From Gemmatimonadota bacterium (GTDB lineage Bacteria > Gemmatimonadota > Gemmatimonadetes > Longimicrobiales > Gaopeijiaceae), in assembly GCA_015664885.1 (NCBI GenBank), contig DQPL01000100.1, forward strand, positions 62,001 to 126,000: a DNA stretch of 64,000 nt, given 5' to 3'. Positions 30,028 through 34,844 of the stretch are shown here, piece by piece. The number at the start of each line of letters is the position of its first letter. Positions within the stretch are counted from its first letter, which is position 1. The notes below the pieces were generated by a model, which had not been told where the DNA came from, did not search any database, and worked only from the letters and a program-made list of their open reading frames with translations. A program made the position numbers and the translations under genes.

Positions 30028-30372
30028 CTACGTGCTGAGCCGCGGAATGGTCATGTTGTCCGGGAACAGCCGGTCTCTTGGAGGCAGCGCGTGAATGCCG
30101 TCGGCGTCCACCACCAGAAACAGGCGGTGAGCCTTCTCCTGATTGAGAGGATGGAGGCTGGGCAGGGTGATGCCGCCCCAGCGCTCGCGGTCCTCCTGGT
30201 TCCGCACGCCCGCCGAGCTATAGTGGGAGTTCGGAGCCTCAACGCGCCGGGCGGCCGCGATCTTCCTCGCACGCCAATGGCGGTACCAGAGCCGGCAAGC
30301 AACCCCGCCGATGACCAGCGCAACGGCGGCTTCAATCCAAAGAATCATCACACCAACATCGTTTAGATCCAC
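30028..30372 (-). CDS. Small membrane-anchored protein
   Basis: 114 residues starting GTG 30372: one N-terminal membrane helix (VMILWIEAAVALVIGGVACRLWY, 8-30), a basic stop-transfer segment (RHWRARKIAAARR), and a soluble tail of about 65 residues (HRLFLVVDADGIHALPPRDRLFP). Orientation is probably N-out, tail cytoplasmic by the positive-inside rule. No family recognised. It is convergent with the zinc-ribbon gene (4 bp apart) and 39 bp downstream of the SbcDC-like fusion gene. Confidence 0.6.
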   Translation of the reverse strand: MDLNDVGVMILWIEAAVALVIGGVACRLWYRHWRARKIAAARRVEAPNSHYSSAGVRNQEDRERWGGITLPSLHPLNQEKAHRLFLVVDADGIHALPPRDRLFPDNMTIPRLST

Positions 30373-30411: not shown

Positions 30412-32946
30412 CTACGACGAGAGCTCGTTACGAAAGGTTGCAGTGCCACGGGCGGGCTTCGCAGGCGCCCTCAGCAGAGTCCTTCCGGGACCGGCCGCGG
30501 CCGGCCGCAAAGCCGGTCCCACGCCCGATGCCTCGTCTCGAACCTCGAGTATAGAATCGAACAACTCGGGGCGTGCGTCTACCGCCTCGCCACCGCTGAA
30601 CAGGATGACGCGGGGGATCTCGCTCAGCAGCTCTTTGGTGAGCACGAGCGTCCGAATACGGGCCTCGAGGTCGAGTCGGTCGAAGGGCTCGGCAAGCACG
30701 AGGGAAGCCATCAATTTCCCGTTCGCCGCCACCAGCGAAGCCGCTGCGAGTCGCACCGCGATGCGAGCCGTCGCTCGATCTTCCTCCGAAACTAGAGCCA
30801 GCACAGAGCGGTCTCCGTTCAGGACCGCCCGGCCCGCCACCATCGACACCGTCAGAATCCGGCCGCCAGAGATTCGGCAAAGAAACCTCGAAGAGCGGTC
30901 GAGCAGCATGTCAGTGGCCCTTACCGACCGTGCTGAGCGTACCCGTCGCAGCGCATCTACAACCGCGCTCAGCGCGCCGCGAGCCTGAGTGGGCGGTACG
31001 GAAACGACCTCTCTCTCAGAAAGCTCAGAGAGGCGTGCGCGCAGCAGCTCGGCTCCCTCGGAGCCGGCCTCGAGCGCCGCATGGAAGCGAAGAGATTCTC
31101 CTTCGAGCTCCTGCAAATGCGACGGCTTGAGTTCGAGCTGCTCCCAGCGGCTCTTCCACCAGCTCCCGTCCTGGACGATGGACTCCCAGTCTTCGTTCAG
31201 CTCTGCCAGCACCTCTTGGTAGTGACTCTCGAGCACGCGACCGCACGTGGGACACGGCGCGTCCGGTCCAGCCGCCTCCAATTTCTTGAGGCGGGCCCGG
31301 ACCTCGCGTGCGCGGTCCCGATAGGCGTTGAGAGTGGTCTCCGCGTCCTGGCGTTCACGCAACCAACCCATGGTCGCGACTTCGAGATCTCCGTCGACCT
31401 CCACTACATCGGCCCTTAGCCCACGTAGGTCTCTTTCCGCGGCTCGGAACTCCGCCGCCACCTGTTCCAAGTGGACGCGGACCGCGCCGCGCCCGCTGCG
31501 CTCAACGAGCCTCACCGGTGCCGCTGATGGCACCGGCTCGACGGCCGCGGTCTCACCAGCTCTCAACAGCGCCGCATCCACAATGGCGAGGCCCCGGCTC
31601 GCCGCGACTGCTTCCGTGGCGAGCGAGATGGTCTCGTCGAGGGTATCGGCGCCCTGCCCGCTCCAAAGCCGGCGAAGGGGTCCGGGAGGCCCATCACCAC
31701 CTACCTGCACGAGCAATGCCTCGACGGCCTGCCGCGCGTGGCCTGCCCCTCCGATCACTGCCGTCAGCCCCTTGGGGAGGGAAGTACTGACCCGGCCGAC
31801 CCCCGGCACGTCTCCGTCCAGGGAGTCGAGAAGTCCGATGGGCTCACGCTCCAACGTGCCCACGAGATCGTCCGGAACGAGCTCTATGATCACTTTCTGC
31901 GTGGTCTCGGTCAGCAGGCCATCCCGCTCGAGCTCGCCTTCCAGCGCGTCGCGCAGAAGCCCGGGTGCATCGACCGGAAGCCAGGCCGCCGGGGGCACGC
32001 GCGGCTCCCTGCCGACCTCAACGGCCAGGTGTAGTGCGCGGCGCCTCAACCCCGTGAGCTCGTCTCCTTGCAAGGCCAACAGGTCTTCGGGGGATGCTCC
32101 TTCCAGCCTCAAACGCACGATCTTGCCGTCGATACCACCGGGGACTTCCGCCACGACCTCCCGCACACGACGCCGCAGTCGGTCGGCGTTGCCTGAAACG
32201 ACCTTGATGGGGGCCAGCGCGACTACGGGCCGGCCGGGAATGGGATGGAAGACGACTTCGTCCCGCTCCAGATCGACGGTTAGGAATCCCTTCTCGTCCG
32301 CGGCTTCGTCCCATGGGTCGAGAGCGACGCGCTCCAGCGATCCGGGGTATCGCGCGTTGGCAACCACGTTGCTACGTCGGTGCTCACCTCCCAGCGCGAT
32401 GTAGTCCCACTCGTCGGGATCGACATGCACGCCCCGCTCGCCGGCAGGGTCCGTAGATCCGTGAATCACGAGTAGGTTCCAACGCATCTTAGGGTCGGAT
32501 TCTGGCAGCGCGGCAGGGTGTCGCACGGTAGCCCGGTAGGGGACCAGGCAAGCATGGAGGTCGAGGCGCTCCATGAGGATGGATCGCGTCAGGCCTGTTG
32601 CCGCTTCGACGTTGGGAAAGGTGTCGAGCACCGCGAGCGCACCCGGGTCAGCGGGTCGGCGCGGCGTGTCCCTCGGACCCGCGACCATGAGCACCGGAGC
32701 CTCCGGCAGCGAAGAGCGAAGCGACTCGAGGCCTCGTGCGAGGGCGACGACGGCACCCGCCGGCGGGTCGGGACGGTCGAAGACGTCTCCAGCTACGACG
32801 ACGACATCAGGTGCGATGCGAACGAGCTCCTGCACCGCTCGCTCGAATGCAGCGGCGACATCGCGTTCACGCAGGTTCGCGCCCCGCTCTACGCGACCGT
32901 ACGCGCGAAACCCCAAATGGAGGTCGGAGAGGTGCGCGACGATCAC
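30412..32946 (-). CDS. SbcD/Mre11-SbcC/Rad50-like single-chain fusion with degenerate active sites
   Basis: 844 residues. Residues 1-240 have the SbcD/Mre11 metallophosphoesterase fold: SDLHLG (D8, H10), AGDVFD (D54), VIHG (H162), then the SbcD-like RYPGSLERV and KGFLTVDL strands. The nuclease site is eroded: motif III is GPRD (90-93) instead of GNHD, and motif V GGEH (186-189) instead of GHxH. Residues 240-390 resemble SbcD capping segments. Residues 390-844 look like a shortened SbcC/Rad50: a loop GGAGHARQ (399-406) where Walker A belongs, coiled-coil arms (490-560 and 575-680), an intact zinc hook C565-P-T-C568, a signature-like SEEDRATARIAVRLA (720-734) and Walker-B-like LAEPFDRLD (751-759) with Asp replaced by Ala. 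So it should still dimerise through zinc but probably neither cuts DNA nor hydrolyses ATP normally. It starts GTG 32946, overlapping the upstream stop (GTGA). Confidence 0.75.
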   Translation of the reverse strand: MIVAHLSDLHLGFRAYGRVERGANLRERDVAAAFERAVQELVRIAPDVVVVAGDVFDRPDPPAGAVVALARGLESLRSSLPEAPVLMVAGPRDTPRRPADPGALAVLDTFPNVEAATGLTRSILMERLDLHACLVPYRATVRHPAALPESDPKMRWNLLVIHGSTDPAGERGVHVDPDEWDYIALGGEHRRSNVVANARYPGSLERVALDPWDEAADEKGFLTVDLERDEVVFHPIPGRPVVALAPIKVVSGNADRLRRRVREVVAEVPGGIDGKIVRLRLEGASPEDLLALQGDELTGLRRRALHLAVEVGREPRVPPAAWLPVDAPGLLRDALEGELERDGLLTETTQKVIIELVPDDLVGTLEREPIGLLDSLDGDVPGVGRVSTSLPKGLTAVIGGAGHARQAVEALLVQVGGDGPPGPLRRLWSGQGADTLDETISLATEAVAASRGLAIVDAALLRAGETAAVEPVPSAAPVRLVERSGRGAVRVHLEQVAAEFRAAERDLRGLRADVVEVDGDLEVATMGWLRERQDAETTLNAYRDRAREVRARLKKLEAAGPDAPCPTCGRVLESHYQEVLAELNEDWESIVQDGSWWKSRWEQLELKPSHLQELEGESLRFHAALEAGSEGAELLRARLSELSEREVVSVPPTQARGALSAVVDALRRVRSARSVRATDMLLDRSSRFLCRISGGRILTVSMVAGRAVLNGDRSVLALVSEEDRATARIAVRLAAASLVAANGKLMASLVLAEPFDRLDLEARIRTLVLTKELLSEIPRVILFSGGEAVDARPELFDSILEVRDEASGVGPALRPAAAGPGRTLLRAPAKPARGTATFRNELSS

Positions 32947-34241
32947 GTGGCGGCGACGCCTCCCCCCAGGGCTCGGAATCCCTCGATGAGATCGGTTGGT
33001 GGCAGGGCCGCTTGGCGTCCCGCTACGAGCAGAACCTCATCCTCGTCGCCCACGCACGGGCGAGTGAGCGCGACCATCGACCAACCGTCGACCGCCTCGG
33101 TGGCAGGGTCGGAGTGGGGGCCCCAGACCAACACTCCCCTCGCGGAGACCCGCTGCCTCAGCGCTGCTTTCGCCCGAACGGACAGTCCTCCCGCGCCGCC
33201 CAAGGACTCGAGCGCCGCACCGTCCACCACGACCAGGTCGTAGCTCCCGGAAAGTCCTTCGATGAGATCGTCGAGGTTGCCTACTGCGACGAAAGAGCGC
33301 TCGGTGCTACCCACCTCCAACCCAGTCTCGAAGTGGTCTCTCCCGAGCTCCACAACATCCCCCAGTCGCTCCAGCACGTGGACTGATCCGGTCGGGTGTT
33401 CTCTCATGACCATGCGAGGCAGAGGTGACGCGCCGCCACCAACCACGAGTACGCGCCAAGATGCTTCTAGCGGAGGCATGAACCTGCGACCCACCGCGAC
33501 GTCCCACGGAATCACCGCGCTCACGTCCGAGAGTCCGATCGCTCGCCTCACGTGTCCAGCTTCGAGCAACACGCGCGACGCTAGGCCATCTTCCGAAAGC
33601 CGCCGGTCCTCCACTCGTACCGGAAGGGCCGTCGCCGCGCGGACCGCCTTCACTTCGATGTGGGGGCGAGCGCCCAGCACGACCCCATACATCATGCCGC
33701 CCAACGAGAGCAGCGCGAGGCATCCGATGAGCAGAAACGAAGGCACCGGCGATCTAGGAAGCATGAGCCCGGTGACAGCGAAACCCATCGCCGCGCCTAC
33801 CGCGGCCGCGGCGCCCGGGCCCGCCCTGGCACCCCTGCCATCGGTCAACGAGGCAGTGCTCATGCCGCCGAGCACGGTCCCGCACGTGTACAACGGCAAT
33901 GCAGCCATGATGGCGAGGCCGAATCCCTGACCGATGGCGGTATCACCGAGCTCGCCAAGCGCACTCCACGACGTGGCGTACGAAGCTGCCGCGAGGAACG
34001 AGGCCAGGCAGAGGATCCAGCGGAGGCGAATGCGGCTCACGAGACGCGGACCGGGACCGGGCGCACTCCACAGGCCGATCGCGAGCGCCGCCGCTTCCAC
34101 CACCAAGACGGTGCTGAGCGACCGCATGAGGCCGGTGCCAGCATACAACAGCACGCCGATGGCGATCTCCGCCGCAGTCGCACACGCGACTCCCACGAGC
34201 AGAGCGGGCAGCCATTCGGCTCGGCGGCGCAAGCTACTCAA
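32943..34241 (-). CDS. Membrane protein with spermidine-synthase-like C-terminal domain
   Basis: 432 residues from TTG 34241, chosen because it overlaps the upstream stop as TTGA and is preceded by GGGAGGGTGG; the open frame upstream only repeats the flavin-reductase antisense. Residues 1-205 hold about six membrane helices (WLPALLVGVACATAAEIAIG first, SFLLIGCLALLSLGGMMYG last). Residues 255-430 form a Rossmann methyltransferase fold of the spermidine-synthase type: WRVLVVGGGASPLPRMVM, VHVLERLGDVVELGRDHF, and YDLVVVDGAALESLG. Fused transporter/spermidine-synthase-like proteins are widespread, and many lack polyamine-binding residues; I cannot confirm polyamine synthesis. It is translationally coupled on both sides, to flavin reductase and to the SbcDC-like fusion. 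Confidence 0.75.
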   Translation of the reverse strand: MSSLRRRAEWLPALLVGVACATAAEIAIGVLLYAGTGLMRSLSTVLVVEAAALAIGLWSAPGPGPRLVSRIRLRWILCLASFLAAASYATSWSALGELGDTAIGQGFGLAIMAALPLYTCGTVLGGMSTASLTDGRGARAGPGAAAAVGAAMGFAVTGLMLPRSPVPSFLLIGCLALLSLGGMMYGVVLGARPHIEVKAVRAATALPVRVEDRRLSEDGLASRVLLEAGHVRRAIGLSDVSAVIPWDVAVGRRFMPPLEASWRVLVVGGGASPLPRMVMREHPTGSVHVLERLGDVVELGRDHFETGLEVGSTERSFVAVGNLDDLIEGLSGSYDLVVVDGAALESLGGAGGLSVRAKAALRQRVSARGVLVWGPHSDPATEAVDGWSMVALTRPCVGDEDEVLLVAGRQAALPPTDLIEGFRALGGGVAAT

Positions 34242-34723
34242 GTCACCACCCTCCCGTACGCTCCGGCGAAGAAGAGCAGTGCTCCACGGTCCGAGCAACC
34301 GGATGCGATCACCCGGCCCAGCACGATGGAGTGGTCCCCTCCCGGCATCACTCCGTTGGTCTCGCATTCCAACCAGGCCGCGGCGCCCTCGAGAACCGGG
34401 CTCCCGTCCGATGCGCCGCGCCAGGCAACGTCATCGAAACGTGTCTCCGGTGGCTCCAATGCGAATCGCTTGGCGATGTCGGCCTGATCCTCGGCCAACA
34501 CACTGACCGCGAACGTCTGTGCGGTAGTCAGCTTGTCGTGCGAGGCTGCTGCTCTGTCGATACAGACCAGGATGAGCGGAGGGTCGAGCGACACGGAAGT
34601 GAACGAATTCACCGTAACGCCCCAAACCGCGGACCCGTGCGCGCGCGCGCAAACCACTGCGACGCCCGTGGGGAATCGGCCCATGACCTCCCTGAACTGA
34701 AGCGAATCCAGTTGGTTCATCAT
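34238..34723 (-). CDS. Flavin reductase-like FMN-binding protein
   Basis: 161 residues from the ATG pair at 34723/34720 (MMNQLDSLQFREVMGRF); the open frame extends 15 codons further without coding character. The flavin-reductase domain signatures FPTGVAVVCA, GVTVNSFTSVSLDPPLILVCID, FAVSVLAEDQADIAKRFA and a late GGDHSIVLGRVIA are clear. These split-barrel proteins use NAD(P)H to reduce FMN/FAD for a partner monooxygenase. No monooxygenase is adjacent, so the physiological partner is unknown. It is first gene of the coupled run leading to the spermidine-synthase-like protein and the SbcDC fusion. Confidence 0.88.
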   Translation of the reverse strand: MMNQLDSLQFREVMGRFPTGVAVVCARAHGSAVWGVTVNSFTSVSLDPPLILVCIDRAAASHDKLTTAQTFAVSVLAEDQADIAKRFALEPPETRFDDVAWRGASDGSPVLEGAAAWLECETNGVMPGGDHSIVLGRVIASGCSDRGALLFFAGAYGRVVT

Positions 34724-34844
34724 TGCCCTAGAACACTTCGCGGCGGCGACCGGGAAATGGCACGCCACCGCGTTTTCAGCTTGCCCCCAGGGGGGTCCGC
34801 ACTAGCTTTCGAGGCCCTTGAGCCGTACTTGAACCGAAGGCCCT

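Follow-up and report, generated by a model that had tools for sequence, protein, structure and literature searches.

The closest described systems are the SbcCD/Mre11-Rad50 complexes, in which head and hook are coupled, so that the contribution of the Rad50 hook and coil has been hard to isolate. Both subunits may occur in one chain: in Mimivirus R555 and twelve other fusions Mre11 is N-terminal and Rad50 C-terminal, R555 retains Walker A, Walker B and the D-loop, the fusions of Anaerostipes and of a Bacillus phage miss one P-loop segment, and the known cases are sporadic and tied to mobile elements (PMC3175470). Two dimer interfaces of human Rad50 are formed by the apex of the hook and the coil next to it, and yeast Rad50 with shortened coils loses its function (PMC11661359). 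Among all known sequences of the phosphoesterase fold, whose metal site comprises seven ligands, an arginine at the position of the catalytic histidine was described only in LpxH (UDP-diacylglucosamine pyrophosphohydrolase), an active enzyme in which this residue makes a bidentate salt bridge to the substrate phosphate, with Mn1 as the proposed activator of the attacking hydroxide (PMC5016852).

The gene considered here lies in the window, the whole stretch of 64,000 nucleotides of a Gemmatimonadota genome that was analysed. It has in common with SbcCD/Mre11-Rad50 both predicted subunit folds, the zinc hook, the gene order, the genomic place and vertical descent, while it differs in the loss of Walker A, the signature and the Walker B aspartate, in the replacement of the catalytic histidine by arginine along with the loss of metal-2 ligands, and in much shorter arms that are often part of one chain. 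Its domain order is that of R555, whose ATP-binding motifs it lacks. Fusion of Mre11 and Rad50 was already known (PMC3175470), and the new part is that a whole clade has lost both sets of active-site motifs and kept the hook, a state for which no precedent was found in the open-access full-text literature, nor was any report there on SbcCD in Gemmatimonadota or on a pseudo-Mre11.

Predicted architecture and the two active sites

The gene runs on the minus strand, as do all the features given below, from a GTG start at 32946 to a stop at 30412 (30412-32946), and encodes a single chain of 844 aa, as the earlier note had read it; the reading frame is backed by orthologues and dN/dS. The proposed Mre11-Rad50 identity was borne out by family models, phmmer and structural alignment. 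The phosphoesterase and cap domain (residues 1-315, 32002-32946) is matched by NCBIfam Mre11/SbcD models over residues 4-288 (best E 2.4e-13) and by Mre11 in a phmmer search of the PDB (9e-12), and the AlphaFold2 model built with 46 related sequences (mean pLDDT 89.3, pTM 0.86) aligns with Mre11 at Z 27.6, so that by prediction the Mre11 phosphoesterase and cap fold is present. The Rad50 kinship of the C-terminal half is weak by sequence, with NCBIfam Rad50 models matching the hook surroundings (E 2e-4) and phmmer the Rad50 C-lobe (708-791, 0.003), and clear by modelled structure, where a Rad50-like head was looked for and found: the model matches the Rad50 ABC head 3qkt_A with Z 16.6 over 249 residues (model span 369-817), which points to a bilobed head of Rad50 type. 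Lobe I takes up residues 371-490 (31477-31836) and lobe II residues 660-825 (30472-30969), and between them the model places a coiled-coil hairpin carrying the hook (491-647, 31006-31476), which is among the most conserved parts in the window's family (f1). The SbcC/Rad50-like half had been called shortened, a description that holds for the coiled coil and not for the head, since both lobes are present in the model.

The motifs of the phosphoesterase site are SDLHLG (7-12), GDVFD (53-57), GPRD (90-93), VIHG (160-163) and GGEH (186-189), and their fate was counted over 80 distinct f1 sequences, with ligands assigned after PMC5016852. The metal-1 ligands are retained almost throughout: D8 in 80/80 and H10 in 79/80 (D8-x-H10, 32917-32925), the bridging D54 (32785-32787) in 78/80, and H189, the last residue of the GGEH that stands for GHxH (32380-32391), in 78/80. 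The metal-2 set varies instead. Where GPRD stands for GNHD (32668-32679), N91 is lost in all 80 sequences and the catalytic His92 is replaced by arginine in 79; H187, the first histidine of GHxH, survives in 6/80, and H162 of motif IV in 49/80. Thus a two-metal nuclease site (GNH(D/E) plus GHxH) is not present in the window protein, and metal 1 is kept. The earlier note had spoken of an eroded nuclease site, and this stands as regards the metal-2 ligands and the catalytic histidine, though not for the metal-1 ligands, almost perfectly kept, or for the fixed arginine. Because the metal-1 ligands are near-invariant while the metal-2 set varies, the site is, judging from the alignment, better called remodelled into one metal plus arginine, in the manner of LpxH, than evenly eroded. 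The likeness is partial: LpxH belongs to the same metallophosphoesterase superfamily, but it has all seven metal ligands, is active and differs in inserted domain and context, whereas the window protein lacks the full set. The window protein is likely catalytically dead, a statement kept at that strength because arginine at the same position is known in the active LpxH; retention of the metal-1 ligands could serve folding alone.

The ATP site was found without a single intact element (Walker A, signature or Walker B) in the window protein by motif and alignment searches, in line with the loss claimed from the sequence. At the Walker A position the protein reads GGAGHARQ (399-406, 31729-31752), with arginine for the P-loop lysine and no serine or threonine; a Walker A motif occurs in 0/80 altered f1 sequences vs 17/17 canonical relatives. 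Across 49 aligned rows the lysine position holds arginine in 39, and tryptophan or leucine in other lineages, and the serine or threonine is missing from almost all of them. A pattern search returned the SGGE signature in 3/80 altered f1 sequences, and the region aligned with the signature in P0001 reads SEEDRA. The position of Walker B and the D-loop, SLVLAEPFDRLD (748-759, 30670-30705; LVLAEPFDRLD being residues 749-759), has lost the Walker B aspartate and kept that of the D-loop.

The zinc hook, by contrast with these sites, was confirmed as intact: CPTC occupies residues 565-568 (31243-31254), CxxC recurs in 80/80 f1 sequences, and the model sets it at the coil apex, in the loop between helices 493-562 and 576-605. 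What the window protein lacks is a long coiled coil. Its P-loop and hook lie 166 residues apart (140-230 in f1) vs 373-375 in canonical relatives; between hook and D-loop the count is 188 (143-226 in f1) vs about 336, some canonical rows reading 371 where the script picked a later SLD. The arms are thus shortened by more than half in the altered form. In canonical Gemmatimonadota SbcC (L054-L073) the spacing between Walker A and hook is near-constant at 373-375 residues, which suggests that arm length was under strict selection, later abandoned in f1. The stretch that f1 keeps corresponds to the hook and adjacent-coil dimer interfaces of human Rad50.

Descent, selection and neighbourhood

The sample comprised 196 related genomes, 116 of f1 and 80 outside it. 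Homologues with the same motif changes, which the earlier note had proposed to seek across Gemmatimonadota, were found as strong matches in 93/116 f1 genomes, internal stops being listed for very few of them; the gene is apparently missing in some f1 genomes (genera g12 and g15) and therefore seems not to be essential everywhere. In the other families f2, f3, f6, f7 and f9 of the order and class, the matches were moderate and fell on their SbcD, and the cases examined have separate SbcD and SbcC with GNHD, GHxH, GPNGxGK(S/T), CPTC and SGGE. Conversely, a canonical SbcC query retrieved full-length genes in these five families, whereas its matches in almost all f1 genomes were limited to a segment of about 130-160 residues of the altered gene that surrounds the hook. 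Public relatives are uncultured Gemmatimonadota MAGs, bar one record titled Gammaproteobacteria (bacterium Ww582, L132), which has a Gemmatimonadota-type altered gene and neighbourhood and is probably a mislabelled or contaminated MAG.

Gene order is shared between f1 and sister families with intact SbcCD, and runs from a flavin reductase through a membrane/spermidine-synthase-like gene, SbcD and SbcC to a convergent large membrane protein. The f1 Mre11 domains are monophyletic (SH-aLRT 100) in a quick tree that includes canonical SbcD and carries a long-branch warning. On the evidence of sequence and synteny the window gene is the vertically inherited, in-place orthologue of SbcD plus SbcC. 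The suggestion that it modulates the true SbcCD was not supported, as a search of the window's genome found no canonical SbcCD elsewhere and the gene is itself the SbcCD orthologue. Neighbourhood, tree and the lack of a canonical copy elsewhere in the genome likewise rule out a paralogue or a horizontally acquired extra copy; a phage or plasmid origin found no support, a search of phages having given a single weak match, to the Mre11 domain, and chromosomal synteny being conserved. Fused and split forms are separated by five changes on the f1 tree (L045 not counted as split, and the L100 gene cut by a contig end), which implies that fusion arose several times, and active-site loss common to both forms makes fusion secondary. 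The f1 fusion therefore departs from the sporadic, mobile-element-linked fusions known so far in being vertical, of several origins and secondary to active-site loss.

Sampled exceptions outside f1 were single ligand changes in L067, L070 and L073 and the locus L063 (2502-6084, family f3), in which a degenerate SbcD (GDRD, GHHP) stands beside a fully intact SbcC. The latter was considered as an evolutionary intermediate and rejected: its closest SbcD relatives are in f3 and f2, indicating an independent loss in which histidine again became arginine.

The gene has been maintained under purifying selection (whole-gene dN/dS 0.03-0.18 in nine pairs), which agrees with the idea of a maintained pseudo-complex and rules out a pseudogene. 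Mean pairwise identity in canonical SbcC is 73% in lobe I, 79% in lobe II and 50% in the hook region, and in the fused f1 clade 49, 64 and 71%, with 72% in the Mre11 domain; as the two groups differ in depth the contrast is valid within each of them, and so read it indicates that the hook moved from among the least conserved to among the most conserved parts.

Translation is coupled to the upstream partner gene (32943-34367), whose stop overlaps the start of the altered gene by 4 bp (GTGA) and whose product combines, by prediction, six membrane helices with a degenerate domain of spermidine-synthase fold. Partner orthologues pass the MFS_SpdSyn cut-off in f3 and fail it in f1, and some split f1 lineages (L036, L039, L040, L065) have the membrane domain without the enzymatic one, which shows that erosion of the partner runs parallel to that of the altered gene. 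Membrane tethering through the coupled partner had been put forward from the sequence; the coupling to a membrane gene is there, and the tethering itself is what we infer from it. The flavin reductase (34238-34768; Pfam Flavin_Reduct 1.9e-40) marks the upstream end of the syntenic neighbourhood, and directly downstream of the altered gene lies a small membrane-type protein of 114 aa (30028-30372), conserved in the window's fused clade, for which no family match was found. Scans for sigma-70 promoters and terminators near the operon gave no more than chance.

A scaffold and its alternatives

We lean slightly towards an ATP-independent scaffold, dimeric through the zinc hook and flanking coil, with a phosphate-binding pocket made of one metal and arginine, and probably membrane-linked; that it dimerises, binds DNA or a phosphate and sits at the membrane is what we infer from the features above. 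On this reading the SbcCD of f1 would have ceased to be an ATP-driven nuclease and become a structural device that works without ATP. Two chains would pair via the hook and flanking coil, possibly also through an interface of the Mre11 dimer type, forming a short, permanent clamp or bridge, and the pocket would hold a phosphate (of the DNA backbone, a DNA end or a nucleotide) without two-metal chemistry. The translation-coupled partner, a membrane protein that in some lineages has lost its enzymatic domain, would place the clamp at the membrane. Given that yeast Rad50 with short coils is inactive, such a short-armed clamp would have to work unlike known complexes. That the whole family should have an ATP-free and permanently engaged hook clamp of this kind, with its one-metal and arginine pocket and anchored via a co-eroded partner, is a more tentative and rather doubtful extension.

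That the enzymatic role could be relaxed is probably due to other machines, and YhaO/YhaN-like, AddAB-like or acquired SbcCD proteins could have taken over end processing. The window's genome has PDDEXK_1-domain ORFs of AddAB-like appearance. The contig of the window also holds, outside it, a YhaO/YhaN-like pair with intact motifs (L034, 8147-12087); such pairs likewise combine a phosphoesterase with a Rad50-like ATPase partner, and differ from the altered gene, their distant kin, in having intact motifs, separate genes and a hydrophobic, probably transmembrane hairpin at the hook position of the coiled coil. Some f1 genomes (L165 and L166) have the altered gene together with an intact E. coli-type SbcCD (1050-aa SbcC, CPVC hook), and L167 has it with another intact SbcCD-like pair; these extra copies were probably acquired.

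An alternative that we regard as unlikely, and that ranks next to the scaffold, is that the protein is still an enzyme, namely a phosphodiesterase or nucleotidase with one metal: Arg92 would take the place of the second metal and of the catalytic histidine, and a new substrate would be acted on without ATP. Metal-1 ligands and arginine that are near-invariant across f1 while metal-2 ligands drift would suit an enzyme of this sort, as would LpxH, active with an arginine that binds the substrate phosphate and with Mn1 as the proposed hydroxide activator (PMC5016852). However, LpxH keeps the seven ligands and f1 does not (N91 lost in all, H187 in 74/80), Pf Mre11 H85S is dead for exo- and endonuclease activity (PMC8007570), and in a subclade (L122, L125, L126) metal-1 ligands or the GxRD motif are gone too.

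Less probable still is a regulator or decoy subunit of the YhaO/YhaN-like, AddAB-like or acquired SbcCD machines, which would bind the machine or block DNA ends. Candidate targets do occur in the family, the YhaN-like gene being strong in about 74/116 f1 genomes and in 0/80 outside f1, and E. coli-type SbcC being present in 20/121 f1 genomes; nonetheless the altered gene is kept in near-complete f1 genomes with no YhaN match (e.g., G006, G028, G051 and G056), and the hydrophobic hairpin of YhaN makes hook-to-hook pairing with it unlikely. A comparison with defence systems gave a weak match of the window protein, in the coiled coil, to LmuB (8.6e-5).

It is very improbable that a non-canonical P-loop (lysine to arginine, GRxRR) still binds ATP in the Rad50 manner and lets the complex cycle: the model keeps the strand-loop-helix geometry and arginine prevails at the lysine position, but tryptophan or leucine replaces it in other lineages, serine or threonine is absent, and the signature and the Walker B aspartate are gone too. 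Finally, a decaying SbcCD relic en route to loss, which the lost catalytic motifs and the gene's absence from some genera might recall, is close to refuted by the low dN/dS, by the invariant CxxC and the metal-1 ligands kept at about 98% across deep divergence, and by the 93 genomes with strong matches, nearly all of them listed free of internal stops.

Significance for Mre11-Rad50 biology

The f1 proteins have shed their ATP-site motifs, metal site 2, catalytic histidine and most of the coil, whereas strong selection has preserved the hook across dozens of genera. The retention of the hook suggests that tethering alone can merit keeping, and the altered f1 proteins make it possible to test a Mre11-Rad50 that serves as tether or scaffold only; if the scaffold reading is true, the clamp would be a natural separation of hook tethering from the nuclease and ATPase roles. 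Next to LpxH, until now the only phosphoesterase described with a fixed arginine at the position of the catalytic histidine, the family represents a second such lineage. For Gemmatimonadota in general, annotation of a gene as 'SbcCD' need not imply a role in end processing.
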